A stretch of 64,000 nucleotides of DNA from Spirochaetota bacterium. GTDB taxonomy: Bacteria; Spirochaetota; UBA12135; COTS27; JAFLEE01. The stretch spans positions 1-64,000 of the forward strand of contig JAFLEE010000008.1 of the NCBI GenBank assembly GCA_017302015.1, written 5' to 3'. Below are positions 7,918 to 27,716 of this stretch, one piece after another. The first letter of the stretch is position 1. The number at the start of each line of letters is the position of its first letter. Both the position numbers and the translations under genes were made by a program. Below the pieces are notes generated by a model. It had not been told where the DNA came from. It saw nothing but the letters and a program-made list of their open reading frames with translations, and made no database searches.

Positions 7918-8103
7918 CTATTCCAATAGATATGGAGCACGCCTCAAAATTTCAACCTTGACCAATTTATATTCGTATTTCGGGGTAGAATACAAGTCAT
8001 CTGGCCTAATAATATGCGCCTCGAAGACATCAAACCCTCCCGAAGCCTCTTCGGTGTCATTCCTGGCGGTGCCCTGGTAACCATAGTTGCATTGGGCACC
8101 CAT
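7918..8103 (-). CDS. possible 61-residue orphan ORF
   Basis: A short minus-strand frame encodes a protein ending EYKLVKVEILRRAPYLLE. The composition looks protein-like, but there is no recognised domain, and the nearest GGAGG lies about 14 bases before the ATG, which is too far for a good start. It lies between the IS256 remnant and the start of the large helicase gene. It could be the tail of a gene lost when the insertion sequences arrived, or chance. Confidence 0.25.
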   Translation of the reverse strand: MGAQCNYGYQGTARNDTEEASGGFDVFEAHIIRPDDLYSTPKYEYKLVKVEILRRAPYLLE

Positions 8104-8224
8104 CGGAGATTCATCACCCCTCCACCCTCAATTCCCGTTCCCACCCCGTCCTGCATATTCCCAACCTTGGGTAGACACCCTTAGCCCTCAGTTTCCACCA
8201 AAACCTCCACCTAGGTGTCCCGCT

Positions 8225-11200: not shown

Positions 11201-13366
11201 ACCCTCGACGTGGTTCATATGAGAAACGTGCCTCCCGGGCCCGCAAATTACGCCCAACGCGGAGGCCGTGCAGGCCGCAGCGGACAATCGGCCCTCGTGC
11301 TTGTGACCTGTTCCCCCTGGTCCCCCCACGACAACCATTATTTCAGCAAGCCCTCGGAGATGATCGCCGGGCAAGTGAACGTGCCCCGTATCGACCTCTT
11401 CAACGAGGAATTAGTGCGCACGCACCTGCATGCGCTCTTCATGGAATCCAATTGCCCTGGCGAACTTGGGGATTCGGTCGGGACAATCCTGGAAATTGAA
11501 AGGCCGGGGATGCCGCTCACCACCGATGCTCAAAACGCACTCATCCTAACCTCGGCTGGGCGCACAAAGATCATCGAGGATTTCAAGCGCGTGCTCGGCG
11601 AACTCGGCCCCCAACTTTTGGAGAAAACCCGTTGGTTCGACAAGGAATGGATTTCGCGAAATCTGGACGCGTCTTCGGCGTCATTCGAGAAGGCCTTGAG
11701 CAGGTGGCGCATCCTCTTCGCCGATGCCACCTCCATGCAGGTACGGGCTCAGGAAGTGATGCGCAACCCACGCCTGAAAAAAGGTTCCGATGATTACAAG
11801 AGTGCCGATCGCCAACATGGACAGGCAAAATACTTGCTGGAAACGCTCCTCAACCAGCACAAGGTGGGCGTTTCAGAGTTCAACCCTTGGCGCTACTTTG
11901 CCGCCGAGGGCTTCCTCCCGGGATATAACTTCACCCGTCTCCCGCTTCGGGCGTCCATCCCCGTGGGGGACGGGTCGGAATACTTGAGCCGACCGAGGTT
12001 CGTCGCCCTGCGCGAGTTCGGCCCTCAAAACACCATCTACCATTCGGGGAACAAGTTTCAGATCAATCAACTCGCGTGGAACGAGGAATCCCGGGTGCGC
12101 CAAGATGCCCGCGTGGTGCTCAAATCAGGTTACTGGCTGGATGGGGCGGAAAAAAACGCCGAGGTCTGCCCTTTTACGAAGCAAAAATTGGAGAGTTCGG
12201 GTAAGGACTATGACGCGGTATTAAACCTCATCCCTATGATGGAGAGCCGAACCAAGCCTGCCACGCGCATCACATGCGAAGAAGAAGAGCGCCTTTCTCT
12301 TGGTTACCGTATCGACACCTTTTTCTCGGTGGATGGGGGAATGAGTCGGGTGAGAAAGGCCCTCATCGAAATCGACGGGCAGACGCTGCTGAACCTCAGT
12401 TACATCCCCGCTGCCCGCATCGTGCAGGTGAATCGCGGGTGGCGCAGTTCGGAGGAGGACGGCTTTTACATCGGGGAAAAGTCGGGATTCTACCACAGTG
12501 CCAAAGACTATAAGAAACGACAAAAAGAAAAAACGGCAGGGCCAGAAGGCGACAGGACAAAGGAAGACATCATCTCCATCAACCTGTTCACCACGGCCAA
12601 CGCCGATGCCCTTTACATCGAACCCATGGGTCCCCTGTCGCTTAAAAAAGATGGCGTGATCACCCTTCAATATGCCCTACTTCGGGCCATTGAGCGGGAG
12701 TTTCAAATCGAACCCGGCGAGGTCGCGGCCACACTCATGGGCGATCCCGAATCTCCCAATATTTTCCTCTTCGAGGCCTCGGAAGGGTCGCTGGGCATCC
12801 TCTCCCAATTCACGACCGATCCCAGTTTATTCAACAAATACATCAAAGCGGCACAGTTGGCGTGTCGTTTTGAAGATACCGAAAGTAAGGCCTCTTATAA
12901 AGACCTACTTTCATACTACAACCAACGAGAGCACCGCATTATCGATAAAAACCTCGTGAAGGACGCGCTCGATCGCCTGGCGATGTGTACCTGCCAGGTT
13001 GACGGCGGCTCGGGCCTGGATTACGATGGGCAATACGCGATGCTCACGAAAAAGGCCGATCCGCACTCCAATACAGAGTCGAAGTTTCTGAAATTCCTCT
13101 ACGAGCGCGGCCTTCGCCTGCCGGATGACGCCCAGCGGAAGGTCCCCTACATCTATTGCCAGCCCGATTTCTTCTACAAAGGCATGCCCGACACCTGGGT
13201 CTTTTGCGATGGCACTCCCCACGATGGGGTCGCACAGCAGAAAAAGGATGAGGCCCTTCGGGAAGAAATGCGCAATCACGGCCACGACGTGATCGAATGG
13301 CATTACCGGGACAGCCTTGAGGGCCTAGTCGAAAAGCGGAAAGACATTTTCAGGAAGGTCAAATGA
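8225..13366 (+). CDS. giant DEAD-type helicase with DUF1998/MZB-like domain and Vsr-like nuclease tail
   Basis: The protein is 1,713 residues from the ATG at 8225 (MSDSFNIFDLH); the frame opens at 8087, but the extra 46 residues are proline-rich and unlike coding sequence. Walker A is SGTGSGKS (108-115), the DEAD-like box is DELH (229-232), motif III is GTSATM (261-266), and motif VI is QRGGRAGRSG (about 1010-1020). Residues about 1480-1580, with IFLFEASEGSLGIL, resemble the DUF1998/MZB domain of MrfA- and DrmB-like helicases. The last 100 residues (QPDFFY, then WVFCDGTPHD, then DEALREEMRNHGHDVIEW) look like a Vsr/DUF559-type nuclease. Its stop overlaps the next start (ATGA). The likely role is DNA translocation and cleavage in a DISARM- or restriction-like system. 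It is larger than DrmA and may combine roles split between DrmA and DrmB. Confidence 0.8.
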   Translation: MSDSFNIFDLHRTVVGEYKDYVNSFIHIADKDIREFVDAQIHENAFWPEPLLQFNPRLKRRGAVKDLAGSGKLLHPDFVHLFKGYELYEHQATAMDLGIKEREFVVTSGTGSGKSLTYLGTIFHKALTEGWGPGIRAVLVYPMNALINSQYEEIKGYQKNYEDATGRPFPVRYAPYTGQEDEAERQKVESELPQIILTNYMMLELIMTRRKESRIRDSIRESLTYLLFDELHMYRGRQGADIAMLVRRIRAAAKNKVICLGTSATMATGTPTEQRQAVAKFAETIFGVRVDPGQVISETIEPSFGGEGEVPAAEVRLAVQQGVDSKASEEALLASPLARWLEAEIALRQVTETDGSKVIVRGVPISQTEITQKLAAKTGLDKKTCSESIQDLLLWMNVVNTAKNELRKSYLPYKVHQFISQTGSVYATLPNVPGGIKFRIEPGMSIKIDGVDYSLYPLVFSRTTGHAFYCVTMDAEKGMLPRGFEEGSSEADEDSKNGYLILGGSEVWDPEVHMEHMPDEWVQGNEGERQFTKDYAKRAPQRYHVGASGAAYHAKGSDTVEGWFMPVPLLFDPTGGVFYDPRTVDSTKLARLGMEGRSTATTVTALAVLRAQERAGFEDKRRKILSFSDNRQDAALQAGHFNDLVKVVELRHGIAKALAEKKELDHTNIDMEVSKALGLSPDDYSRLKGPEGPVKAQIENAFREYLLYRVLADLRRSWRINLPNLEQTGLLRIDYRNLESVASEGATWKDVPVIGALGIERRLTVLGNVLDHIRREFAISSAVWLDDEEQIKQRFRNITERLQAPWVFDENTEKPENFVPKMMVLKGSKGGKRYRISSAGPQSLLGRYLKKVAGEVKEDLSKANYYKAVGTLFEKLAKLGFLDEVPAKADDGTQINHYRLKLDTILWREGDGKAIKWDEVRRYTYKDLEDRPNLYFQTIYKEGFGAVSRYLAEDHTAQVNSENRKTREQKFREGAISALFCSPTMELGIDIRTLDVVHMRNVPPGPANYAQRGGRAGRSGQSALVLVTCSPWSPHDNHYFSKPSEMIAGQVNVPRIDLFNEELVRTHLHALFMESNCPGELGDSVGTILEIERPGMPLTTDAQNALILTSAGRTKIIEDFKRVLGELGPQLLEKTRWFDKEWISRNLDASSASFEKALSRWRILFADATSMQVRAQEVMRNPRLKKGSDDYKSADRQHGQAKYLLETLLNQHKVGVSEFNPWRYFAAEGFLPGYNFTRLPLRASIPVGDGSEYLSRPRFVALREFGPQNTIYHSGNKFQINQLAWNEESRVRQDARVVLKSGYWLDGAEKNAEVCPFTKQKLESSGKDYDAVLNLIPMMESRTKPATRITCEEEERLSLGYRIDTFFSVDGGMSRVRKALIEIDGQTLLNLSYIPAARIVQVNRGWRSSEEDGFYIGEKSGFYHSAKDYKKRQKEKTAGPEGDRTKEDIISINLFTTANADALYIEPMGPLSLKKDGVITLQYALLRAIEREFQIEPGEVAATLMGDPESPNIFLFEASEGSLGILSQFTTDPSLFNKYIKAAQLACRFEDTESKASYKDLLSYYNQREHRIIDKNLVKDALDRLAMCTCQVDGGSGLDYDGQYAMLTKKADPHSNTESKFLKFLYERGLRLPDDAQRKVPYIYCQPDFFYKGMPDTWVFCDGTPHDGVAQQKKDEALREEMRNHGHDVIEWHYRDSLEGLVEKRKDIFRKVK

Positions 13367-16188
13367 ACCTGGGGTTTCGCACCGGCTCGTTGGTGAAGGT
13401 CCGCGGAAGGAATTGGATCGTTCAGGCCTCTACCGATGAAGACGTGCTTCGCCTCAAGCCCATGGGGGGCTCGGAAGAAGAAAGCACGGGTATCTACCTT
13501 CCGCTGGGCCTGGATACCGACCTTGAATCCGCCACCTTCGGCCCGCCCGATCCCAAGCATATCGGCTACCTGGGTTCGGCTCGGGTGCTTTTGGATGCCC
13601 TGCGCCTCGGGTTTCGCTCGGGGGCGGGCCCTTTCCGCGCCATGGGGAAATTGTCGTTCCGGCCCAAGGCTTACCAACTCGTGCCCCTCATCATGGCCCT
13701 CAGGCAGGAGGGCGCCAAGCGGCTCCTCATCGCAGACGATGTAGGGATTGGAAAGACCATTGAGGCGCTCCTCATCCTCAAGGAACTCCTGGAGCGTCGG
13801 GAGATCAAACGGTTCGCCATCATCACGCCCCCTCACCTGTGCGAACAATGGCAGCAGGAACTCTCGGAAAAGTTCGGAATCGACGCGGTAATCATCCGCT
13901 CCAGCTCTCAGGGGCGCCTCGACCGGGAAATCCAGGGCGACGTGTCGGTCTTCAAATACTACCCCTACCAGGTCATCAGTATCGACTACATCAAGCAGGA
14001 GAACCGCTGGCGGGTCTTTTCCAAAGAATGCCCGAACTTCGTCATTCTCGACGAGGCCCACACGTGCGCCAAGCCCGCCGGGGCCTCGCCCGCCCAGCAG
14101 GAGCGCCACCACCTGATGCACCACCTGGCGGAAGACCCCGCCCGCAGCCTCATCATGCTCACGGCGACCCCGCACAGTGGGAAGAACGAGGAGTTCGCAT
14201 CCCTCCTGGGCCTGCTCCACCCTGAATACGCGGGGCTCCAATTGGCGGACGCCCCAGAGGAAATGCGGCGGAAGGTCGCCGGGGATTTCGTGCAGCGGCG
14301 CCGGGGCGACATCGAGAAGGGCTACGGGAGAGAGAACACCCCGTTTCCCGTGCGCGACACGAAGGAAATCAGTTACCACCTCACAGACGCCTACCAGGCC
14401 GTTTACGACGAAATCACGCAGGTGGTGATGGGCATGCTCAAGGGGGATGGGCTCAAACGGGCCCATTACTGGAGCGCCCTAGCCCTTCTGCGCGGCGTGA
14501 TGTCGAGCCCCGCGGCGGGCGCGGACATGCTTCGCAATCGCGCGGCGAGCGAAGCGGATAATGCGGAGGCCGAGCAGATCGGGAACCCCCTCCCCGAGCG
14601 AGAAGGTGTCGCTGGCGACACCACACCCAGCGGGCACTTCCCCGAGCGGATCAAACGCTCGGTGGATTTCGACGCCCTGGCCGGTCGGCTTGAGGCCCTG
14701 GGGAACCCCGGGCAGGATCAGAAGGTTGCCGAGGCCGTGAAGGTCATCACCGGCTGGCTCAAGGATAAAACCCACCAACACCATCCCATCGTATTCTGTC
14801 GGTATATCGCGACGGCCAAGTACGTTGGCCAGGTGTTGAGCGAGGCGCTAGGCAAAGAGTTCGGCACCGGGAAGGGCCGCGTGGGCGTCGAGGTCATCAC
14901 GAGCGAAGACCCGGATGACCTGCGGCGCGAACGCATCGACGCCATGGAAACCCACGCCCGGCGCGTGCTCGTGTGCACCGATTGCCTCTCCGAGGGGATC
15001 AACCTGCAAGACCTGTTCACCGCGGTGCTCCACTACGACCTGCCGTGGAATCCGAACCGGCTGGAGCAGCGCGAGGGCCGCATCGACCGCTACGGGCAGA
15101 AAGCGCCCGAGGTGAAGGCCTGGCTGTTATGGTGCGAGAAGAATCCCATTGACGCCGTGGTGCTCAAGGTGCTCATCCGAAAGATTCGGGAAATCCACAA
15201 ATCCATCGGCATCACCATCCCCTTCCCTGAGGCGAGCCAATCGCTCATCGAAACCGTGGTGGACGAGGTTTTGAAGAACGCCAAGCAGGTGGGCGGTCAA
15301 CTCAAGTTCGACATGCAACAGGCCGGGGTGGATACGCCCGAGGCCAAACTCTCCCATGCTCTTGAGGAAGCCAAACAGCGCAATCAGGAAACCCGCAATA
15401 TCTTCGCCCAGCACGCCATCAAGGCCGCGGACCTTGAGGCCGACCTGAAAGAGAACGACGAAGCCATCGGGAACCCCGAGGCCGTGGAATCGTTCGTCGG
15501 CCGGGCACTTTCCGAGCACCTGGGCTGCCAGGTGGAACCCGGGACGGAGCCGATGACGCTTCGCATCTTCCCCACGAATCTACCGGAGGACATGAAGGGC
15601 CTCTTGGGCGTGAAAGGCGCCGAGCCCGTGGCCGTATCGTTCCAAAGCCCGGTGCCCGAGGGCTATCGCTACCTGGGGCGAAATCACCCCTTCGTGGAAG
15701 AACTCTCCCGCCGCCTCGCCGATTGGGCCATGACGGGTGCCCCCAAGGCCCCGGCCCGGGCCGCCGTGGTCATGACGAAGGACGTGACGGTGAAGACCAC
15801 GCTACTACTATTCCGCGTGCGCAACGTCATCGAAGACCGGGAAACGAAAGAACAGATCGTCGCCGAGGAAATGCTCATGACGGGTTTTGAGGGCACTTTC
15901 GGTGGCGCCTTCCTGGAACCCGAGCGGGCCCGCGACCTGCTCTCGAAGGCCAAGGGGAGCGGCAACCTCTCGCCCGAAATGCAGGCCGATACCCTGGGGC
16001 GCGAGGTGAAGGCCGTGGCCGAAATCACGAAGCCCTTGGATGACCTGGCTACCAAGCGATCGGAAATACTCATCGCCGCCCACGAGCGGTTCAGAAAGAC
16101 TATCGGGGGTACACGGTATCGCACCGTGGAGCCCGTGCTGCCTATGGACCTCGTCGGCGTCTACGTGCTCCGACCGGACCGGGGATAG
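13363..16188 (+). CDS. SNF2-type helicase, DISARM DrmD-like
   Basis: The 941-residue protein begins MNLGFRTGSLVKVRGRNWIV, a beginning I associate with the DrmD family. Walker A is in DDVGIGKT (125-132), the DEAH box is at 230-233 (ILDEAHTCAKP), and LTATPHSG gives motif III. The C-terminal RecA domain has SEGINLQ and LPWNPNRLEQREGRIDRYGQ near 545-575. SNF2-type ATPases translocate along duplex DNA; in class 1 DISARM the drmD and drmMI genes are neighbours, as here. The start overlaps the upstream stop by ATGA, so the two proteins are probably made in fixed proportion. GC is high and uniform. A general restriction-associated helicase is the alternative to true DrmD. Confidence 0.85.
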   Translation: MNLGFRTGSLVKVRGRNWIVQASTDEDVLRLKPMGGSEEESTGIYLPLGLDTDLESATFGPPDPKHIGYLGSARVLLDALRLGFRSGAGPFRAMGKLSFRPKAYQLVPLIMALRQEGAKRLLIADDVGIGKTIEALLILKELLERREIKRFAIITPPHLCEQWQQELSEKFGIDAVIIRSSSQGRLDREIQGDVSVFKYYPYQVISIDYIKQENRWRVFSKECPNFVILDEAHTCAKPAGASPAQQERHHLMHHLAEDPARSLIMLTATPHSGKNEEFASLLGLLHPEYAGLQLADAPEEMRRKVAGDFVQRRRGDIEKGYGRENTPFPVRDTKEISYHLTDAYQAVYDEITQVVMGMLKGDGLKRAHYWSALALLRGVMSSPAAGADMLRNRAASEADNAEAEQIGNPLPEREGVAGDTTPSGHFPERIKRSVDFDALAGRLEALGNPGQDQKVAEAVKVITGWLKDKTHQHHPIVFCRYIATAKYVGQVLSEALGKEFGTGKGRVGVEVITSEDPDDLRRERIDAMETHARRVLVCTDCLSEGINLQDLFTAVLHYDLPWNPNRLEQREGRIDRYGQKAPEVKAWLLWCEKNPIDAVVLKVLIRKIREIHKSIGITIPFPEASQSLIETVVDEVLKNAKQVGGQLKFDMQQAGVDTPEAKLSHALEEAKQRNQETRNIFAQHAIKAADLEADLKENDEAIGNPEAVESFVGRALSEHLGCQVEPGTEPMTLRIFPTNLPEDMKGLLGVKGAEPVAVSFQSPVPEGYRYLGRNHPFVEELSRRLADWAMTGAPKAPARAAVVMTKDVTVKTTLLLFRVRNVIEDRETKEQIVAEEMLMTGFEGTFGGAFLEPERARDLLSKAKGSGNLSPEMQADTLGREVKAVAEITKPLDDLATKRSEILIAAHERFRKTIGGTRYRTVEPVLPMDLVGVYVLRPDRG

Positions 16189-16197
16189 GGCATCGCC

Positions 16198-19100
16198 ATG
16201 AACTACCCCAGCATCCGCATCGAAGGAAGCATCCTTTCCCACGACCTGCTCGACCGCCTGGAGCGCGGTGACCTGCGCCACCAGGATGCCAAAGATTTCG
16301 GGTTCGACCATCACCACAAAGTGAAGGACCGCATCGCCGAGGCCTGGGCCGCTGCGAGCGCCCATTACAAGGTATTCCAAAGCCGAATCAGCGGCCTGAA
16401 ACCGGACGAAACGGGCACGACCGAAACCCGGCGCCACTTCGGGGAACCTTTTTTCTCCCTCCTCGACTACACGCTCGTGGTTCAGAAGGCAGGAGAATCC
16501 TTCGGGGACCGCAATTACCTCATCTCCCACCGGGACGAAACCCGCGATGGCTTCCCCGTGCATATCGTTGGCGCCAACGATAGCCTGGACAAGAAACGCG
16601 ACAGCGGCGGAGGGGCCCGGATTTCGCCCCACGCCCTCCTGCAGGAGTATCTGAACCTCACGGAGCACACCTACGGCCTGGTCACCAACGGGCGGCTCCT
16701 GCGCCTGCTTCGCGACAGCACGCGGCTTATCCGCCTTTCCTACCTTGAAGTCGACCTGGAGCGCATGTTCGGCGAGGAGCTCTACGCGGACTTCGCCGCC
16801 CTATACCGCCTCATCCACGCCAGCCGCATGCCGAAAACCCGGGCCGACGAGCCGCGGGCGGTGGTCATCGAGCAATACCACCAGGACAGCCTGGACGACG
16901 GCGGGCGCATCCGCGACCGGCTCTCGGAAGCCGTGGCACGGGCCATGGAACTCATAGGATGCGGCCTGCTGGCCCACCCGATGAACGAGAAACTGCGCGA
17001 GCAGGTGAAGGCCGGTAACCTGACGGGGCCCGATCTCTACCGGGCGCTCCTGAAACTCATCTACCGCGTGCTCTTCATGATGGTGATCGAAGAGCGCGGC
17101 CTGATCTACCCCGAAGGGACCCCGCAGCGCCTGCGGGAACTCTACCGCGATTTCTACAGCGTGGGCCGCCTGCGCCAGCACGCCATGCGCCGAAGGTCGG
17201 ACGAGAAGCAAAATCGTGACCTGTGGGTGACGCTTCGCCACACCTTCCGCCTTTTCGAGAACGCCGAACTCGGGGCCAAATTGGGCCTCAAGCCCCTGGG
17301 TGGCGACCTCTTCCGCCCGGGATCGCTCGAGCTTCTCGAAAACGCCGAACTCGACAACGCCTCGCTCATGGAGGCGTTCAGCGGCCTAGGCACCTTCCAG
17401 GACACCCGCACGGGCGCCTGGGTGCGCGTGAACTACGGGGCGCTGAACGTCGAAGAGTTCGGCTCGGTCTACGAGGGCCTGCTCGACTACAGCGGCGACA
17501 TCAAGAAAGAAGGGAACGGCTGGGCCTTTGCCCTCGTGAAGGGCAGCGAGCGGGGCGCCACGGGCAGCCACTACACCCCTGAGGAATTGGTCCAGCCCCT
17601 CATCCGCCACAGCCTCGACCACGTCATCAACGAAAAACTCGCCCTGCCCGACAAGGCGCAGCGCGAGGCGGGCCTCCTCTCCATCGCCGTATGCGATCCC
17701 GCCTGTGGAAGCGGCCACGTGCTGCTCTCGGTGGCCAGGCGCATCGCCGCTCAAGTGGCCAAGGTGCGCACGGGCGAAGACCAACCCTCGCCCCCGGCCT
17801 TCCGCGCCGCCATGCGAGATGTGATCGCCCGCTGCCTCTACGGGGTGGATAAGAACCCCATGGCCGTGGAACTCTGCAAGATCGCCCTGTGGCTTGAGGG
17901 CCACAGCCCCGGGGAACCCCTGGAGTTCCTCGACCACCGCATCCGCTGCGGCGACAGCATTTGTGGCATCCGAACGCTCGCCGAACTCGTGGAGGGCATC
18001 CCCGAGGCCGCGTTCGATACGTCCGAGGAAGATGACAAGGACGTCGCGAAAGCGTTACGTAAAAAGCACGCGGACGAGGTGAAGGCCCGTAAAACTGGGG
18101 CCCTGAGTTTCGGCGACACCCAGGGCGCCCTTGAAGACCTTTCCACGCGCCTTGCCGCCCTAGAAGCCATGCCCGAGCATTCCCCCGCCGAGGTCGACAC
18201 TAAACAAAAGGCCTGGCAGGAACTCGTCACCGGACCCTCCTACGCCCGCCTTAAAGCCGCCGCCGATACCGCGATGGCTTCGTTTTTCACACCCAAGACA
18301 GAAGCGAATCGAAACCTGATCGCCACGGAAAAGGATTTCAGGGCGATCCTTGACGGGAGGATTTCACCTCCGGTGAGCCAGTTCGCCAAGGCCGCCAGCA
18401 CGCTAACCGGGGAGCGGCGGTTCTTTCATTGGTTTTTGGAGTTTCCCGAGGTGAAGGATGGGTTTGATGTGGTCATTGGAAACCCTCCTTTTCTCGGTGG
18501 GCAGCGTATTCGAGGGGCCAACGGTATCCGCTACCTTGACTATATGAGGCACACATTTGCCCCTGCGGGCTCTATAGATATGGTGGCATACTTTTTCCGT
18601 CGAGCCTTCGACCTCATTTCGCCGAATAGGCTCTTCGCCTTAATTGCTACCAACACCGTAGCGCAGGGTGCTGCCAGAGAAGGAGGCCTTGAGGTTATCG
18701 AAAAAAACGGTGGCACAATTAACTTTGCCGTTCGTTCAACTCCATGGCCTGGAGTTGCCGCCGTGGAGGTGGCTCTTGCTGTCGTTAATAAGGGAACATG
18801 GCCTGGCAAGAAAGTCCTAGACGGGAAAGAGGTTCAGCATATATCAAGTTTTTTTGACGATCAGATGCAAGTTGCAGGAAATCCACATTTTCTTTTGATA
18901 AACTCGGGAAAGTCGTTTCAAGGCTCAATTGTATTAGGTGATGGCTTCGTAATGGAACCCGAAGAAGCGCAGCGTCTGATTAAGAAAACACCAAAAAATA
19001 GCGAAGTAATTCAGCCATACATGAATGGCGAGGACCTCAACAGTAGGCCTGAACAAAACCACTCGCGATATGTGATTAATTTTTATGATTGGCCCCTAGA

Positions 19101-20151
19101 AAGAGCCAAAGCCTTCCCGGAGGTAATTGAGATTCTTGAAGAAAAGGTGCGACCGGTTCGAGAACTCAATAATCGTGAAATTTATAAGAGGCTTTGGTGG
19201 CAATACGCTGAAAAGAGACCAGCTTTATATCGAACAATTTCGGGAATGAGCGATGTCCTCGGAATCGCATGTCAAGCTGTTAAATACGTGTCCTTCTCCT
19301 ACTTGCCTGCAAACTGCATCTACTCAAATGCATTAACGATTATCGCTTTAAATTCGGATTCGGATTTCGCTGTCTTACATAGTTGCTTTCACTCAGAATG
19401 GGCTTGGAAGAATTCTTCAACCATGAAGGGTGATTTGCGCTATGCTTCATCTGCATGTTTTGAAACGTTCCCTTTTCCTGATGGACTTAATTCAATTCCG
19501 AAGGAAATTTCCTATAACTATCGAACTCTTCGACATAAATTAATGTCCGATTGCCGAATTGGAATTACAACCGTATATAACCTATTTCACAAGAGGTCAT
19601 TGGACTTTAAAACCATTGTTGATTTCAGCAAGCATCTCCGGTCACTTCAATCCCCTATCGATTCTCATGAATCACCAATTACTAAACAAGCTGTCGAAGA
19701 CATTAAAGCACTCCGTCGGCTTCATACAACAATCGACGAGGCAGTTTTGAACGCCTATGGCTGGCACCAACCCGGCCCCATGGGCCCCGCCATCCAGCTT
19801 CGCCACGATTTCTACGATGTCGAATACCTGCCCGAGAACGATCGGGTGCGCTACACCATCCACCCCGAGGCCAGGCGCGAGGTACTCAAGCGACTCCTGG
19901 CGCTCAACCATGAGCGGCACCGGCAAGAGGTCGCCGAGGGGCTGATGGACGAGAACGACAAGCCTACGGCCAAGGGGAAGGCGATCTTGGCGGAACGGAT
20001 GGGGAAGGCGGGGAAGGATGATGGGGAGGACGGGGGGGAGGCGGAGGCGGTTGTGGGGGGTCTTGGCGAGGCTAAGGTGAAGCGGGGGCGACCGGCGGGG
20101 AAGAAGGGAGCTGGGAAGAAAGAGGATGGTGGGCAGCTTTTAATGGGGTGA
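16198..20151 (+). CDS. Eco57I/DrmMI-like N6-adenine DNA methyltransferase
   Basis: The protein is 1,317 residues. The SAM-binding motif I is DPACGSGHVLL (about 501-511) and the catalytic motif IV is NPPF (762-765), diagnostic of gamma-class N6-adenine methyltransferases. The N-terminal 450 residues are the large helical part shared with DrmMI and PglX-like enzymes. The segment after motif IV (positions about 18,540-19,740) is markedly AT-rich, while DNA on both sides is GC-rich. That segment should be the target-recognition domain, so the specificity region looks exchanged. The C-terminus is a low-complexity Gly/Lys/Glu tail. It starts 9 bp after the DrmD-like gene and is the third gene of the operon. 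It should mark host DNA as self. Confidence 0.87.
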   Translation: MNYPSIRIEGSILSHDLLDRLERGDLRHQDAKDFGFDHHHKVKDRIAEAWAAASAHYKVFQSRISGLKPDETGTTETRRHFGEPFFSLLDYTLVVQKAGESFGDRNYLISHRDETRDGFPVHIVGANDSLDKKRDSGGGARISPHALLQEYLNLTEHTYGLVTNGRLLRLLRDSTRLIRLSYLEVDLERMFGEELYADFAALYRLIHASRMPKTRADEPRAVVIEQYHQDSLDDGGRIRDRLSEAVARAMELIGCGLLAHPMNEKLREQVKAGNLTGPDLYRALLKLIYRVLFMMVIEERGLIYPEGTPQRLRELYRDFYSVGRLRQHAMRRRSDEKQNRDLWVTLRHTFRLFENAELGAKLGLKPLGGDLFRPGSLELLENAELDNASLMEAFSGLGTFQDTRTGAWVRVNYGALNVEEFGSVYEGLLDYSGDIKKEGNGWAFALVKGSERGATGSHYTPEELVQPLIRHSLDHVINEKLALPDKAQREAGLLSIAVCDPACGSGHVLLSVARRIAAQVAKVRTGEDQPSPPAFRAAMRDVIARCLYGVDKNPMAVELCKIALWLEGHSPGEPLEFLDHRIRCGDSICGIRTLAELVEGIPEAAFDTSEEDDKDVAKALRKKHADEVKARKTGALSFGDTQGALEDLSTRLAALEAMPEHSPAEVDTKQKAWQELVTGPSYARLKAAADTAMASFFTPKTEANRNLIATEKDFRAILDGRISPPVSQFAKAASTLTGERRFFHWFLEFPEVKDGFDVVIGNPPFLGGQRIRGANGIRYLDYMRHTFAPAGSIDMVAYFFRRAFDLISPNRLFALIATNTVAQGAAREGGLEVIEKNGGTINFAVRSTPWPGVAAVEVALAVVNKGTWPGKKVLDGKEVQHISSFFDDQMQVAGNPHFLLINSGKSFQGSIVLGDGFVMEPEEAQRLIKKTPKNSEVIQPYMNGEDLNSRPEQNHSRYVINFYDWPLERAKAFPEVIEILEEKVRPVRELNNREIYKRLWWQYAEKRPALYRTISGMSDVLGIACQAVKYVSFSYLPANCIYSNALTIIALNSDSDFAVLHSCFHSEWAWKNSSTMKGDLRYASSACFETFPFPDGLNSIPKEISYNYRTLRHKLMSDCRIGITTVYNLFHKRSLDFKTIVDFSKHLRSLQSPIDSHESPITKQAVEDIKALRRLHTTIDEAVLNAYGWHQPGPMGPAIQLRHDFYDVEYLPENDRVRYTIHPEARREVLKRLLALNHERHRQEVAEGLMDENDKPTAKGKAILAERMGKAGKDDGEDGGEAEAVVGGLGEAKVKRGRPAGKKGAGKKEDGGQLLMG

Positions 20152-20185: not shown

Positions 20186-21052
20186 ATGTTTAAACTGAAA
20201 ATTGAAAAAGAAGTTCTAAAACAAATCTCGATGAGTCCCAAATGGGATGTTATCGCCAGGGCTAAATCGATGAAATCTTGGAAAGGAATCTATAGAGCCA
20301 AGATTTCAGAGAGTTATCTTAGCCGTCTCTCTCTCTATTTGTTCTCCAGGTCACTCATGGGTTTGCGCAAATGGGATACTACGGATTTTATTGCCTTTCA
20401 TCCAGAGAAAAACGTACCGCTGCTGCGTGCCTATGAATTTCTTTGGCTACAGTATGACGAAAAGAATGATGTTCAAAACCAGGTTTTTTACTCTGACCTC
20501 ACTTCCTCATTCCCACCCAATGTGTATAAATTCATTGACGACTCATCAATGAGAAGTAGCGTGCGCAAATCTGATTTCACTGACACTACCAAATCCCTTT
20601 TTGGGGAACTCTATTCAGGTGGCGAATTTTCTAAATCGATCTCCAATTATACAAAACAATTTATCGACAGCCTCATGACCCCTTCCCAGTTTCAGCACAA
20701 ACTCAAAACTACAAAATGCTGCTACTGTGAAATTGAATATACACAAGAAGGAAACCCAGAGACGACCCAAAGGAGCATGCAGCAACGGATGAAAGACTTG
20801 ATGTATCGTAGAGCCAAAAGGAATCGTGGCTGGAATGGACTTGAGATTGAAAGATTGGAACCAAATCTAGAGTATTTCGATAAAAACGTGGCCATGTGTT
20901 GCCACTGGTGCAATAACGCCAAAACCGATGAATTCACGGCAGAGGAGATGCGGAAAATTGGAGGCACTATGAAAACAATTTGGCAAGATCGCTGTAAAAA
21001 AGACTTCGAGGAAGACTTGTTGAAAAAATTGGATTTGACACAGCCCGGATAA
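20186..21052 (+). CDS. HNH endonuclease domain protein
   Basis: The protein is 288 residues, in low-GC DNA unlike the GC-rich operon before it. The C-terminal third has CCYCEIE (about 177-183) and then GLEIERLEPNLEYFDKNVA followed by CHWCNNAKTDEF. This is the Cys-supported HNH layout, with Cys pairs holding zinc and the LEIER/N/CNN segment forming the beta-beta-alpha-metal site. The N-terminal 170 residues are unrecognised and may be specificity or toxin-control sequence. It lies 34 bp after the methylase stop, so it could be co-expressed as the cutting partner. The same architecture recurs at 26688. A McrA-like restriction role is inferred. Confidence 0.78.
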   Translation: MFKLKIEKEVLKQISMSPKWDVIARAKSMKSWKGIYRAKISESYLSRLSLYLFSRSLMGLRKWDTTDFIAFHPEKNVPLLRAYEFLWLQYDEKNDVQNQVFYSDLTSSFPPNVYKFIDDSSMRSSVRKSDFTDTTKSLFGELYSGGEFSKSISNYTKQFIDSLMTPSQFQHKLKTTKCCYCEIEYTQEGNPETTQRSMQQRMKDLMYRRAKRNRGWNGLEIERLEPNLEYFDKNVAMCCHWCNNAKTDEFTAEEMRKIGGTMKTIWQDRCKKDFEEDLLKKLDLTQPG

Positions 21053-21182
21053 GAATACCACCACATAGCATCCTATTACGACAATGATATGCACCAAGTG
21101 TAAAGGGTGATGTAACTATGGGGAGTCTGTGCTAACCTTATGCAACCGGCAACAAACCGGACACTTGGGTTAACAGTCTCTG

Positions 21183-21297
21183 GTCGAATACCTGCCTAAG
21201 AAAGATCGGGTACGCTACACAATCCATCGCGAAACTGGGCGAGAGGTGCTTAAACGGTTCCTGGCGCTCAACCACGAGCGGCATCGGCAGGAGGTCT
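21183..21297 (+). pseudogene. relic of a second methylase 3' end
   Basis: About 115 bp repeat, at roughly four in five bases, the part of the adenine methylase gene at 19819-19933. Most differences are at third codon positions. The frame reads VEYLPKKDRVRYTIH and then LALNHERHRQEV, the same segment as the active gene. It has no start, no flanking methylase sequence and is cut off by an IS3 remnant on its right. Synonymous divergence shows that it came from a related, once-functional allele and not from a recent local duplication. Confidence 0.85.
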
Positions 21298-21299
21298 CT

Positions 21300-21870
21300 G
21301 AGAGATCGAACACCCTTGCCTCGCCAGATTCTCACGGAGCCGCACCGCTCCTTCACCTCGCCAGTGACCTCCATACGGTTATGGATCAAGCGCTGGATTA
21401 AAGCCTTGCGCTCCTTTCGCTTAGACGATTACTTCCGGCGAGAGCGGTAGTAGCCGGAGGGGGTCACATCCAGGGTGTTGCAGGCCTTGGTTACCGGCAA
21501 GGCTTGGGGTTGGGCGATGAGCGCAATCTACACATGGGTCACCGAAATACCAAGGCGATAGTTTTTTATTAAAAGATCGCGCTCCACCCGTAGCAGGGTC
21601 ACTTTAAGCTTTATGCGAGTGAGCTCGACCTGGACGGGGTGGGTGCGTCCGGGTCCTCGAAATGCCAGTTCTCCTTCCTGGCGCAGCTCCCATTTCCACC
21701 GCGAGAGTGACCCGGGGGTAACTCCCAAATCCTTCTCGATCTCTTTGAGGGGCTTTTCCCCTTTGGCTGCCAGGGCGAGGGCGTCTTGCGTGAACTCCCG
21801 ACCGATCTTTTTCGTGTCTTTTCCTCGTGAATTTGCTCGTCTATAAACCTTCCTCCTTAGGTTATCCGAA
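21300..21870 (-). pseudogene. IS3-family transposase remnant (OrfA and start of OrfB)
   Basis: The minus-strand frame at 21528-21728 and its upstream continuation encode an IS3 OrfA: RRANSRGKDTKKIGREF, then LGVTPGSLSRWKWELRQ (helix-turn-helix) and a basic coiled segment with LLRVERDLLIK. Downstream at about 21310-21520 is the beginning of OrfB, ALPVTKACNTLDVTPSGYY, broken by stops. The catalytic DDE core is absent. The OrfB remnant ends abruptly where the methylase relic begins, suggesting a deletion joined the two. Confidence 0.75.
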
Positions 21871-21912
21871 GGCGGCTTAACTCCCAGTCCACATTATTGA
21901 GATAGATCACAT

Positions 21913-24018
21913 CTAAATTTCCCGAAATGGGAAGTTTGAAAGACGAAGGGTCGCTTGGTAATCATAAGGCTGGCAATACGCCTCGCCATTTACGAGCCGG
22001 CCTCCGTACTTTCGGGCCAACTCGCACAAATCCTCCGCCCTCAAGCTGCCCCGCTCATGCAATCGTCGTGCGAGTTCAATAAGGAACGTTCCTTCTCGGG
22101 ATAGAAAATCGCAGGCGATCGCTTGCGCTTTCAAAAGAAGGTTTTCGATCTCTTCCTGGATCGCCCCAGCCCGATCCCGTAGGAACTGATCATTGCCATC
22201 GGCACCTTCGCTCATGAATCGACCAAGGCTTTGTCCCAGGCCATACTGGCGCACCGCCTGGGCGGCCAAACTAGTCGCGGACGAAATGTCGCTGTGGCTG
22301 CCCATGCCCTGGTTTTCCTTTCCAAATACGATCGTCTCGGCCAGGGACCCGGCGAGTAGGACCGCCAATCGGCCTAAGAGGGCTTGATATGTCGTGAGGG
22401 CCAACTCGCGATGCACTTCAACGAAGCCCTCGCCACGGTTTGCCGCACTATTGACTTGGACGCTCGTGGGCACCAGACCGCTGTAGGCCATGCTCACGAC
22501 CGCATGCCCTGCCTCGTGCACGGCGACCAGAGCAGACTCGGCGCCTGGAGTATAGGCCCGGTCGGCTTCAATATGTCTCTCAAGCGCAAGCATCATGCGG
22601 TGGTGAGGTGCAGCATCCTGACCCGTATAGAAATCTGCCACCAGGGATCCCCGGTCATAGGTGAATCTGATTTCTTGGACGGGCATCCCAAGACGACCGC
22701 GCTCAGCGAACACGCGTGCGATATTTCGGCCGATGTGCGCGTGGATGGTGCTAAAGAGAGGCCGCGTACCCTGGGAAGGGACCACACCATCGCGAAAGAG
22801 ATACTCATGCACTTTGTCATCGAAGCGTAGCGACACTTGGCTTTCTTGCAAGGTGCGTTCAGCAAGCCGGTGGAGCTCAGCGGCGATCACCCGGCGGTAG
22901 GCCTGCGAACCCAGCGAGGGGTAGATAATGTGCACGTTTCCCAGGCGCGCGATCTGCTCGGCTCTGAATCGGCATAGCAGCGCCTCCTTGATGTTGGCCA
23001 TGGTGAAGGCGAGGGTCCTTTCCCGAAAGAGATCTGGGTCTAAATCGGGATTCAGTTCGTTGGCCTCTTCATGAAGTTCATCGATGTTCCCGATCACGAA
23101 CACCAGGGTCTGGCGGCAATCGATGGTGCTGACGAATTTCACCTGTTTAAGTAGCCCACGGATCAGGGTCAGGCAGCCCTCGCCATCTAGCAACTTCAGC
23201 GCCTCCTTCATCATAAATATCGTCGAGAATTTTTCTTTGAAAAGCTCTCTGAGAGACTCGAGCATGGCGTCGGGGATGAAGGGACTTCCGCGGTAATGCA
23301 GTCTGACCCCCGTATGAGTGAATTCCCTCCAATAATGTTTGAAATTCACCATGCGATTGAGGGTTTCACGACCGCTGAGCACGCGATTGCCAGCCACGCG
23401 CACGCCGCAGTCCAAGGCCTGCTTGAGGTCTCGGATGAAACTGTTAGCGGTGGCGTAGTCATCCGGTATCTTGGTGATCTCGACCCGACCCGTGTCGAGG
23501 AGGTCCCAGACGAAGGTCTTGTGTTCGCGTTCATCGCCGTTGGCGTTCTTGGTTCGGAAATGCTGGAATTCGTCGAGAATCAGAACGGCCGGCTTGCCAT
23601 CGATTTGACAGAAAGCCTCGTTGCTTACGGTGAAATCATCCGAGCCCAGTTCCGCCAAGTTGATTCGAAAGCAGCTCTGCGTGCAGCCCAGAAGCTCGGC
23701 AAGGCGGCGCACGAGGGCCGTCTTGCCGACCCCCGTGAGGCCCCACAGGTTCACCACCATGGGGCGCTCTTGCAAATGACTGCAGAGAAACCAGCCCGTG
23801 ACGGAGGCGATGACCTTGTCAATGACGGAATCTAGACCAAAAAACTCTTGCTTCAGTTGTTGGGCGGCATGCTCAAGCAGGTCCCAACGCTGGCTGTCTC
23901 CTAGTATCTCATTCTCCATCGATTTTTCATTCTGCACTTGGAGCGAAGCCTTATCTTCAAGAAAGGTCGCCTGAATTCCAGCAGAATTGGAATCGTGCTT
24001 ATAGGTCTGGTGCTTCAT
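21913..24018 (-). CDS. Clp-type AAA+ ATPase fused to an FtsH-type M41 zinc peptidase
   Basis: The protein is 701 residues with a good GGAGG about 7 bases before the ATG. Walker A GLTGVGKT is at 93-100 and Walker B AVLILDEF at 144-151. FVIGNIDE near 308-315 is sensor 1, and GTRPL at 417-421 matches the sensor-2 GARPL of Clp/HSP100 ATPases. The C-terminal part has the zinc-protease motif HEAGH (501-505) and the downstream acidic ligand region in GSHSDISSAT (D577), the M41 signature of FtsH. FtsH normally carries a classic-AAA module and two membrane helices; here the ATPase is of the Clp clade and no transmembrane segment is seen, so a soluble self-contained protease is predicted. The substrate is unknown. 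An island location suggests conditional proteolysis in defence or stress. Confidence 0.85.
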   Translation of the reverse strand: MKHQTYKHDSNSAGIQATFLEDKASLQVQNEKSMENEILGDSQRWDLLEHAAQQLKQEFFGLDSVIDKVIASVTGWFLCSHLQERPMVVNLWGLTGVGKTALVRRLAELLGCTQSCFRINLAELGSDDFTVSNEAFCQIDGKPAVLILDEFQHFRTKNANGDEREHKTFVWDLLDTGRVEITKIPDDYATANSFIRDLKQALDCGVRVAGNRVLSGRETLNRMVNFKHYWREFTHTGVRLHYRGSPFIPDAMLESLRELFKEKFSTIFMMKEALKLLDGEGCLTLIRGLLKQVKFVSTIDCRQTLVFVIGNIDELHEEANELNPDLDPDLFRERTLAFTMANIKEALLCRFRAEQIARLGNVHIIYPSLGSQAYRRVIAAELHRLAERTLQESQVSLRFDDKVHEYLFRDGVVPSQGTRPLFSTIHAHIGRNIARVFAERGRLGMPVQEIRFTYDRGSLVADFYTGQDAAPHHRMMLALERHIEADRAYTPGAESALVAVHEAGHAVVSMAYSGLVPTSVQVNSAANRGEGFVEVHRELALTTYQALLGRLAVLLAGSLAETIVFGKENQGMGSHSDISSATSLAAQAVRQYGLGQSLGRFMSEGADGNDQFLRDRAGAIQEEIENLLLKAQAIACDFLSREGTFLIELARRLHERGSLRAEDLCELARKYGGRLVNGEAYCQPYDYQATLRLSNFPFREI

Positions 24019-24520: not shown

Positions 24521-24910
24521 TCACTTCCAGGAACTAGAAGGCTTCCAAATGGGAAGGACATTCCATTTAGCCTGACTATCACCGCTTTTCGGTCTTTGCC
24601 CCCGACAAGCCACCACCTCAATTTCCACGAGACTGGCATCGACGATTATTTCCTGAAGGTAGGTAAAAATAGTTTCCATTTCCCCGGATTTCTTTTTCCG
24701 TTCAACGGGTTCAATCAAGGCAATATAACAGGAGTGAAATTTCCCCTGCTCGTCTTTTTTATCCATCTGCCAAAAAAACCCGACTCTAGATTCCCCAGGC
24801 TGAAGTAGAACATCCTTCCCGATTGTATCAGATTCTAAGAGTACGGGCTCCGTGCCAACTGCCTTGACCTGAACAATAAACCCCATAGATGACTCAATGG
24901 GCAGTTTCAT
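24521..24910 (-). CDS. hypothetical protein in the cREC-SpoU operon
   Basis: The protein is 129 residues and I do not recognise its family. The sequence alternates short hydrophobic stretches (GFIVQVKAVG, VGFFWQM, IIVDASLVEIEVV) with charged turns, which suggests a compact mostly beta fold; there is no signal peptide or membrane segment. Its start overlaps the end of the cREC-SpoU gene by 17 bases, so it is the last gene of a three-gene operon and probably works with the two upstream enzymes. The tail ending KPSSSWK may be disordered. Confidence 0.6.
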   Translation of the reverse strand: MKLPIESSMGFIVQVKAVGTEPVLLESDTIGKDVLLQPGESRVGFFWQMDKKDEQGKFHSCYIALIEPVERKKKSGEMETIFTYLQEIIVDASLVEIEVVACRGQRPKSGDSQAKWNVLPIWKPSSSWK

Positions 24911-25772
24911 TTTTTACTCCTTTTAGCCAAAGATAGGATGCCGCGGCCGCCGCAGTGGCAACGTTAATGCTATTCCCCATGCCTAACATGGGGAGATGCA
25001 TGAAGTCATCGCTCATATTTAATGCCTCATCGCTTATACCTTTTCGCTCGTTACCTAGAACAAAAGCAACAGGGCCAGTCAGATCAGCTTTCGAAAGAGA
25101 TTGGCCCCCTGCAACGAGTTCAACAGCAATAATCCGAATGCTCATCAACCGAAGCATTCTAAGCGACTCCGCAACAGGGTAGACGCCAATGGGAACCCAC
25201 TTTAACATGCTTTTTGACGCCCGCTTGAACTTACCTCCTGTAAGGAGGTCCAATTCAGCCTTGCCCATCCATATTTTTTCCGCTATGACCGCGTCAGCAA
25301 GCCTGAAGATGTTGCCGATGTTTGAAGCAGATGAAACTCCGTCCAAAACCAAATGAAGAGGATTTCTGCGCAGATATTTGAATTCTGATCGAGCAGGCTT
25401 GCCCATGCGTAGTTCACTGCGGTCAAGCAGATGACTTCCTACCCGCAAATTGCTTCCGCTTGATAATTCATCATTGAGGTGATTTTCAACGTAGTTTTTA
25501 ATAAACCGGACCCCCGCCTCCATTCTCAATCTTGCGACGGGATTTGTCGTGTGAATTCTGATCTCTGGAGGAATGTAACCATTTGTCACAACCTCTTTTT
25601 CGATCCAGACAATCACGTCATACCCTGTCCCAGAAGTGACTTCCCCCAAGTCATGATCCAAAGAAATGATCTCAACTTTATATGTTCGGAGACAGCCAAT
25701 GACTTCATGAGGGGCTTTTGCCAAAAGCCAGCCAGGCGGAGCTTCTCTTTCATCATCGAGCCATATTTTCAT
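24894..25772 (-). CDS. cREC receiver-like domain fused to a SpoU/TrmH RNA 2'-O-methyltransferase
   Basis: The protein is 292 residues with two parts. Residues 1-95 (MKIWLDDERE, then EIISLDHDLGE, then TGYDVIVWIE and HTTNPVARLRMEAG) match the family named cyclic-phosphate-processing receiver domain (cREC). Residues about 133-288 are a SPOUT methylase: motif 1 DGVSSASNIGNIFRLADA, motif 2 FVLGNERKGIS and motif 3 MGNSINVATAAAAASYLW. SpoU enzymes 2'-O-methylate ribose in tRNA or rRNA using SAM. Joining a domain linked to RNA cyclic-phosphate ends with a ribose 2'-O-methylase would fit repair and sealing-protection of cleaved RNA, but that is an inference. Its start overlaps the upstream deiminase stop (ATGA) and its end overlaps the next gene. 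Confidence 0.82.
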   Translation of the reverse strand: MKIWLDDEREAPPGWLLAKAPHEVIGCLRTYKVEIISLDHDLGEVTSGTGYDVIVWIEKEVVTNGYIPPEIRIHTTNPVARLRMEAGVRFIKNYVENHLNDELSSGSNLRVGSHLLDRSELRMGKPARSEFKYLRRNPLHLVLDGVSSASNIGNIFRLADAVIAEKIWMGKAELDLLTGGKFKRASKSMLKWVPIGVYPVAESLRMLRLMSIRIIAVELVAGGQSLSKADLTGPVAFVLGNERKGISDEALNMSDDFMHLPMLGMGNSINVATAAAAASYLWLKGVKNETAH

Positions 25773-26614: not shown

Positions 26615-26687
26615 GTGATCGATGATAGGATACACCAAGGACAAAAGTTGTCCAACCCCGAATTCACACTGCCCGAAGGAGAACTGG

Positions 26688-27716
26688 ATGAGTGCAAATA
26701 AGATCAACGTTGGGTCAATCATGGCTCGCGACTTCAAGCATATGAACGACCTCTTCATTGCAGATTGCATCCGGAGAAAGGTTGATCCGGCGGGAACATC
26801 TTCTCTATATGAGAGCTTTGTAGCGTTTGTCAAAACCGAGCCGACCGAAGAAATCAGAGACTACTTTAAAAAACTATATCAGTTAAACCCACCCGATGAC
26901 TTGACATTGCCTGAAGGACAAGATGTGGATGACCTCTGGACAACACTTAGCCTGCGTTTTGCAAAAGAACATCCTTTAGTTAAAAAGTGGCATCTATCCT
27001 ATAGAGCCAAAGAGGCCGACTACCTGAAAGCGTTTCTAGAGAAGAAAATGGACGAGACGCCTTGCCATTATTGTGGCACGAACGAAAAGTCGATCAAACT
27101 TTTAATAGAAACGGGGAAACTCTTTTCCAAAAGACTCCTAACTCGAGGGCGATCGCTAGAGGTCGAACGCAAAGACCCCCTCAAGGGGTATGTAGATGGA
27201 AATCTTGAATGGGCTTGCTACTGGTGCAATAACACGAAGACGGATTCATTTGATGATGCCGATTTCAAAACAATCGGGGATGCGATTGGTCAATTGTTTC
27301 AAAAGAAGTTGGGTGAAATCAATCAACGCCAGTATCTTTTCAAAAGGAGACAATATTGTCCAAATGCAAATTTTGCGGCTTCACAAGTTATGGCCCGTCG
27401 AAGGATCAAAAGCATCCCGATGATGTTCATATCCATCTCGAGACTGGAGCAAATTGCGTCTATTGTGGTTCAACAAGCTACGGCACGTGTCATGACCAGA
27501 GACACCCCGATGGCGTCCATCGCCACGGATCCGATGGAGTTAAGTGTATTTTCTGCGGATCCACAAGCAATGGAACCTGTAGAGACCAGCGCCATCCGGA
27601 AGGGGTACACGAAAAATAGCAAGCCTTATGGACGGTGCATACGATTATTTCGTCGCCCTGCCCAATATTACCCATGCCGCGATTCGCCTTTCTTTCCGAT
27701 CTTCACGGTGATCTAA
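26688..27716 (+). CDS. HNH endonuclease domain protein, second copy
   Basis: The gene starts at the ATG at 26688 (MSANKINVGS), with AAGGAG 7 bases upstream. The formal frame gives 342 residues. It has CHYCG (about 126-130) and then SLEVERKDPLKGYVDGNLE followed by CYWCNNTKTDSF, the same Cys-supported HNH layout as the gene at 20186, with an unrelated N-terminus. The HNH homology ends near 27345. The last roughly 120 codons run out of frame over the Cys/His-repeat gene and are compositionally poor, so the natural C-terminus is uncertain. It is divergent from the deiminase operon. A nuclease role is inferred from the motif. Confidence 0.72.
   Translation: MSANKINVGSIMARDFKHMNDLFIADCIRRKVDPAGTSSLYESFVAFVKTEPTEEIRDYFKKLYQLNPPDDLTLPEGQDVDDLWTTLSLRFAKEHPLVKKWHLSYRAKEADYLKAFLEKKMDETPCHYCGTNEKSIKLLIETGKLFSKRLLTRGRSLEVERKDPLKGYVDGNLEWACYWCNNTKTDSFDDADFKTIGDAIGQLFQKKLGEINQRQYLFKRRQYCPNANFAASQVMARRRIKSIPMMFISISRLEQIASIVVQQATARVMTRDTPMASIATDPMELSVFSADPQAMEPVETSAIRKGYTKNSKPYGRCIRLFRRPAQYYPCRDSPFFPIFTVI
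27356..27619 (+). CDS. small protein of three 30-residue Cys/His repeats (zinc-ribbon-like)
   Basis: The 87-residue protein probably starts at TTG 27356, which has AAGGAGA about 6 bases upstream. It consists of three exact-period repeats whose first Cys are residues 4, 34 and 64. The unit is CxxCGxTSxG, then DQxHP, then VHxH. Two Cys and two or three His per repeat suggest one zinc ion each. I know similar CxYCGS repeat proteins only as hypothetical. It overlaps the formal 3' end of the HNH frame in another frame. The context suggests a nucleic-acid-binding or regulatory partner of the HNH protein. Confidence 0.75.
   Translation: MSKCKFCGFTSYGPSKDQKHPDDVHIHLETGANCVYCGSTSYGTCHDQRHPDGVHRHGSDGVKCIFCGSTSNGTCRDQRHPEGVHEK

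Follow-up and report, generated by a model that had tools for sequence, protein, structure and literature searches.

In this work, we describe a gene that joins, in a single open reading frame (ORF), an ATPase motor of the Clp/Hsp100 type and a zinc metallopeptidase of the FtsH type (family M41). It lies on the minus strand of the window, by which we mean the whole stretch of 64,000 nucleotides that was analysed (positions 1 to 64,000 of contig JAFLEE010000008.1, assembly GCA_017302015.1, from a Spirochaetota bacterium), and its 701 codons, read from an ATG start to a stop at position 21913, translate into 701 amino acids. The chimeric protein is probably a soluble, single-chain, ATP-dependent protease that serves as an accessory proteolysis module in phage or stress conflict. 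Its parts are known; the combination appears to be undescribed.

Three Pfam models were placed on the window protein, all with scores above their gathering cut-offs: AAA (residues 91-169, E-value 5e-6), ClpB_D2-small and Peptidase_M41. Among NCBIfam models, the ClpA, ClpB and ClpV profiles matched the motor, and the FtsH profile TIGR01241 was matched only through the M41 part (profile positions 416-598), with all of these scores far under the cut-offs for whole proteins. Sequence searches of the PDB led from the C-terminal part to FtsH, YME1 and AFG3L2, and from the motor to ClpB, ClpC, ClpE and ClpA. A first-pass annotation of this DNA had proposed just such a join at positions 21913 to 24018, with Clp-like Walker and sensor-1 motifs, a GTRP sensor 2, a HEAGH site and the M41 acidic ligand. 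The three domains in one ORF bear out the join, the boundaries were exact, to which we add the strand, and all the motifs are present, Asp577 being the acidic ligand.

The clade of the motor was examined by profile comparison of the hhalign type, using a family profile built from 18 bacterial members. The AAA part of this profile matched the second nucleotide-binding domain (NBD2) of E. coli ClpB with an E-value of 8.5e-16 over 283 columns, followed by ClpA D2 (4e-9), Lon (1e-6), ClpX (9e-6) and HslU (5e-5). The match to the AAA module of FtsH was far weaker (8.8e-5), and the C-terminal domain matched FtsH M41 with 2.9e-21. In the profile alignment, NFRPEFINRIDEVVVFHPL of ClpB stands opposite RFRAEQIARLGNVHIIYPSL of the family, and Arg358 is therefore identified as the arginine finger. 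All structure models were of a single chain. With the AAA part of a first AlphaFold model, Skd3, ClpC, ClpA and ClpB NBD2 were retrieved at Z 22-24, mostly with a root-mean-square deviation (rmsd) of 3-4 Å. A second model, based on 57 aligned sequences, covers the full length with a predicted local distance difference test score (pLDDT) of 87.4 and a predicted template modelling score (pTM) of 0.81, which we regard as confident. By profile and by structure, the motor belongs to the Clp/Hsp100 NBD2 type and not to the FtsH clade, as the annotation had supposed.

Residue conservation was counted over 64 aligned homologues, bacterial and viral. In the ATPase, Lys99, Asp149, Asn311, Arg358 and Arg419, together with Gly417, are invariant (64/64), and Glu150 of Walker B is kept in 62; the peptidase residues His501, Glu502, His505 and Asp577 are likewise found in all 64. 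Because the key residues are invariant or nearly so, the motifs are not chance resemblances, and the residues for ATP hydrolysis and zinc proteolysis appear to be retained in essentially every relative examined. A dead protease was rejected on account of the invariant catalytic residues, and an artefactual fusion because the join is common to 17 other bacterial copies and about 45 viral ones.

The protein departs from both Clp and FtsH in several respects. From the conserved WxLLDxG motif to sensor 1 there are 97-132 residues in all bacterial members but one (17 of 18); the exception, L042, has 25, and E. coli ClpB has 19. The model shows the pre-sensor-1 hairpin as strands 178-183 and 295-300, separated by the mostly helical residues 184-294. 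Most members of the family have a shortened segment between strand β2 and Walker B, the region where ClpB carries GYVG; an aromatic residue occurs somewhere in it in 57 of 64 members. The IGF/IGL-type tripeptide ([LIVM]G[FLM]) is absent between sensor 1 and the arginine finger in all 18 bacterial members, so canonical ClpP docking is not expected. The highest hydropathy over 19 residues of the window protein is 1.77, located within M41, compared with two segments at 2.3 in E. coli FtsH, and no FtsH-like hydrophobic stretch was found in family members, a few values of about 1.9 lying at doubtful ORF starts. A membrane helix or anchor is thus apparently missing, as the annotation had claimed, in so far as hydropathy alone can tell.

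With FtsH, YME1 and AFG3L2, the chimera shares the placement of motor and M41 on one chain in the same order and a zinc site made of HExGH plus Asp; it differs by its Clp NBD2-type motor, its extra domain before sensor 1, and the lack of a predicted transmembrane segment and of an FVG-type pore loop. With ClpB, ClpC, ClpA and Skd3 it shares the NBD2 fold, the D2-small lid, and the arrangement of arginine finger and sensor 2, but it would be a single AAA ring with its own peptidase, devoid of D1, the middle domain, the ClpP-docking loop and the GYVG pore loop.

No second full copy of the chimera was found in the source genome. Elsewhere, 17 further distinct bacterial copies (18 in total) were recovered, mostly from Bacteroidota, with one from a Spirochaetes metagenome-assembled genome (L002/L038) that is 34% identical to the window protein from end to end. 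The copy L043 is from Bizionia. A motor-only scan of genome contigs gave 13 loci, again mostly in Bacteroidota, every one of them with the M41 domain, and 395 sampled Bacteroidota genomes contributed four additional copies (about 1%). The family also extends to viral contigs: a scan of IMG/VR with a 14-sequence alignment revealed 57 loci, of which about 45 are distinct; most are full length, with 26-33% identity, and their contigs measure 14-479 kb, many of them 100-479 kb. An earlier IMG/VR scan with a two-sequence AAA alignment had returned no loci, its patterns being too specific; a single viral protein retrieved only itself, and a clade alignment added one new locus. The window protein had no tblastn match in plasmids and phage isolates, and two viral copies searched against phage isolates met nothing but fragments of FtsH or Clp, each short of 80% query coverage; the full-length chimera was not found in the cultured phage records searched. 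In BFVD, the Clp, AAA and M41 matches from phages were separate proteins and FtsH came from giant viruses; no full-length match was evident.

Terminase_6N was detected above the cut-off in 12 of 40 tested viral contigs. Other viral markers include a portal protein in L088, a T4-type clamp loader in the adjoining gene in L068 and a tail-fibre match in L079; the viral status of the remaining contigs is that assigned by IMG/VR. In four loci classed as viral (L089, L090, L104 and L110), the chimera has genes for ABC transporter, permease and OmpA-like proteins in its vicinity, and the viral status of these loci is uncertain.

Among M41 domains, a branch with support of 100/98 divides the 18 bacterial members from FtsH. 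In a tree that includes viral sequences, 16 of the 18 bacterial copies, that of the window among them, form one group (97/94) amid viral ones, with L033 and L053 placed outside it. The tree is unrooted, and the greatest diversity of the family is on viral contigs. Transfer from phage to bacterium would be the simpler reading of such a topology, and the chimera was probably exchanged between large phages and bacteria.

A survey of neighbouring genes, suggested in the annotation, was run over the family. WYL genes adjoin the protease in 9 of 18 bacterial loci; in 13 genomes there are 29 WYL domains, seven of which adjoin the protease, where chance would give well under one (an estimate from genome sizes). 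The cREC domain is rare, with four genes in the same 13 genomes, three of them near the protease: in the window, in L032, where the gene overlaps the protease stop codon, and in L033. An additional case is the viral locus L065. At six viral loci (L069, L070, L073, L078, L109 and L119), the chimera is succeeded by DnaK and DnaJ genes, which either adjoin it or stand only a few genes away. Genes for restriction or other defence functions occur in the vicinity of L036, L041, L042 and L050, and matches to restriction-modification (RM), GmrSD and pAgo-like proteins were found close to several relatives. No chaperone neighbours were seen in the bacterial loci examined. The defence island proposed in the annotation holds for the window and several relatives, not for all loci; as this setting is not universal and the deepest diversity is on large viral contigs, defence is one of several roles that the chimera could have.

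Some further details of these neighbourhoods deserve mention. In the six viral loci, DnaK and DnaJ are full-length and clustered with the chimera, and a small gene of Nudix-like type often comes next. On another viral contig (L116), a ClpA/ClpC-like first-ring protein is encoded a few genes away from the chimera (12950-14956, plus strand). In L051, the protease and WYL genes are separated by a gene for a 331-amino-acid protein of unknown family (10028-11023, minus strand), which overlaps the protease gene at its start.

For the chimera, we infer proteolysis, hexamerisation and a defence role. It would assemble into a hexamer whose AAA+ Clp ring unfolds the substrate using ATP and feeds it directly into the M41 chamber of the same subunits, so that a separate ClpP would not be needed. 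The domain of about 110 residues before sensor 1, beside a pore without GYVG, would serve as a gate or a selector for substrates. The chimera of one group of large phages would work with the phage DnaK and DnaJ through Hsp70/40 delivery, and in bacteria its expression would often be under WYL control, with deployment in conflicts that involve phages or stress. The copy in the window, which lies in a defence island and has a cREC gene as a neighbour, would be one such acquisition; for it, neither a defence effector nor a stress protease is firmly preferred. More tentatively, and with rather less than even confidence, we suggest that a self-contained soluble Clp-M41 machine diversified in large phages, some of which encode it in a cluster with DnaK/DnaJ as a portable set for proteostasis, and that it entered bacteria on more than one occasion, to be rewired there under WYL/cREC conflict signalling.

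Several results weigh against such an accessory module of phage and stress conflict. The aromatic-hydrophobic-Gly triplet of pore loop 1 is present in only one of the 64 members and is missing in the ClpB alignment, and given this loss classical threading may be impaired or achieved in another way. The gene neighbourhoods vary: the genome of the window has no WYL hit, many loci have no nearby defence gene, and DnaK occurs on only 7 of the 40 tested viral contigs. Moreover, 28 of these 40 contigs have no terminase above the cut-off, and some of them may be fragments or misclassified.

The same neighbours could also belong to a dedicated anti-phage effector, in which infection by a phage or a mobile genetic element would lift WYL repression, or yield a cyclic-phosphate signal for cREC to handle, after which the protease would destroy a phage protein or an essential host protein. 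The defence island of the window, the RM, GmrSD and pAgo-like matches near several relatives, the sparse occurrence in sampled Bacteroidota, and the frequent WYL partner, from a class of regulators known to control immune operons (PMC9122601, PMC9122588), would all fit. Nevertheless, we consider it somewhat unlikely, since the family is most diverse on viral contigs, where an antiviral function would hardly be expected, several bacterial loci are without defence genes, and no PADLOC model exists for it. A general stress or proteostasis protease, that is, a disaggregase-protease fed with misfolded substrates by Hsp70/Hsp40 and with no special link to conflict, is likewise doubtful. The ClpB-type motor, the DnaK-DnaJ pairs of the six viral loci and the conserved active sites of both domains are consistent with this role, but ClpB engages DnaK through its middle domain and D1 ring, both of which the chimera lacks; besides, the bacterial loci show no chaperone neighbours and the distribution is patchy, unlike that of a housekeeping protease.

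The loss of the canonical pore loop 1, the large and variable insert at the site of pore loop 2 and the conserved WYL partner might instead point to a regulatory or processing protease, which would cut one or few native substrates, for instance a virion protein or the WYL repressor; the insert would then serve for recognition, and bulk substrate would not be threaded. The complete set of ATPase motifs, which suggests mechanical work, and viral neighbours that vary between phages make it quite unlikely. A divergent FtsH paralogue that lost its membrane anchor is highly improbable. In the whole-chain Foldseek ranking, FtsH chains do come first, because both domains align, yet their rmsd exceeds 11 Å. 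The Clp NBD2-type AAA module, by profile and by structure, and the grouping of the family M41 domains apart from FtsH speak against it, and we rejected it on the clade of the motor.

The usual list of bacterial AAA+ proteases comprises FtsH, Lon, ClpAP/CP, ClpXP, HslUV and the proteasome type. As a rule, the peptidase of a Clp motor is a separate protein, and an M41 peptidase is paired with a membrane-bound AAA motor. The Clp-M41 family is widespread, breaks both pairing rules and is diverse in large phages, and it thereby tests how far unfoldase and peptidase modules are interchangeable. It also offers a one-chain Clp-type protease for mechanistic work, in which the missing pore-loop motif makes the translocation mechanism directly testable, and it raises the question of why phages carry their own chaperone-protease set.

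We found no earlier description of this architecture, in agreement with the first-pass annotation, which knew it by no name. Neither Pfam nor NCBIfam has a model of the full Clp-M41 arrangement; no PADLOC model covers the chimera, with weak matches in the AAA region only; PHROGs gave only the partial matches phrog_4871 and phrog_30773; and the open-access literature searched contains no description that we could find. Dodola (DolA/DolB) acts against phages and includes a Clp-like AAA+ protein (PMC11514479), and a weak DolB profile match covers residues 47-129 of the chimera (E 5e-7, 27 bits); Dodola differs in being a two-gene system for which M41 is not described, and only the Walker A region of the chimera matches DolB, not the full length. 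The cREC domain has been linked with WYL in phage and bacterial conflict loci and in NAD-/RNA-repair systems (Iyer et al. 2021, PMC7824862), and here, too, cREC is found near the protease. The text of that paper has no M41 or FtsH; it names ClpP, ClpS, ClpA, ClpX and DNAJ in jumbo phages, but not a Clp-M41 fusion.

Table 1. Coordinates of the chimeric protease, its parts and its upstream neighbours in the window
Feature	Coordinates	Strand	Basis
Clp-NBD2/M41 chimeric protease, 701 amino acids	21913..24018	-	ORF/translation, Pfam, 64 aligned homologues
Clp/Hsp100 NBD2-type AAA+ module, residues ~40-480	22579..23901	-	hhalign ClpB NBD2, structural matches
Walker A GLTGVGKT, residues 93-100	23719..23742	-	Lys99 invariant 64/64
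Walker B LILDEF, residues 145-150	23569..23586	-	Asp149 64/64, Glu150 62/64
~110-residue insertion in pre-sensor-1 hairpin (Clp pore-loop-2 site), residues 184-294	23137..23469	-	Model, span lengths
Sensor 1 LVFVIGN, Asn311 invariant	23086..23106	-	64-homologue alignment
Arginine-finger motif RFRAEQIAR	22945..22971	-	Arg358 64/64; aligns with Arg of ClpB EFINRID
ClpB D2-small lid domain, residues 369-438	22705..22914	-	Pfam PF10431, 3.3e-8
Sensor 2 QGTRP within lid	22759..22773	-	Arg419 64/64
M41 zinc metallopeptidase domain, residues 494-666	22021..22539	-	Pfam PF01434, 3.4e-18; hhalign FtsH M41, 2.9e-21
HEAGH zinc-binding/catalytic motif, residues 501-505	22504..22518	-	His501, Glu502, His505 64/64
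Asp577, third M41 zinc ligand	22288..22290	-	64/64
129-amino-acid ORF between cREC-SpoU and protease; association uncertain	24521..24910	-	ORF only, no Pfam match
cREC-SpoU gene, a receiver-like cREC domain joined to a SpoU RNA methylase; lies upstream, may be a partner	24894..25772	-	Pfam

The cREC-SpoU gene of the window is the sole cREC gene of its genome. The left half of the window contains a defence block of three genes on the plus strand (8087-20151), with matches to a DruE-like helicase, a DpdE/DrmD-like helicase and a DrmMI/type IIG methyltransferase; the block does not fit neatly into any single named system. Just downstream of the protease, positions 21053-21912 hold a degenerate transposase-like remnant, recognised by eye only. 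Two related proteins with HNH-like CxxC motifs (20186-21052 and 26622-27716, both on the plus strand) flank the protease region. Pfam gave no match for either of them, and the one at 20186-21052 has a weak match to PtuA/PtuB.
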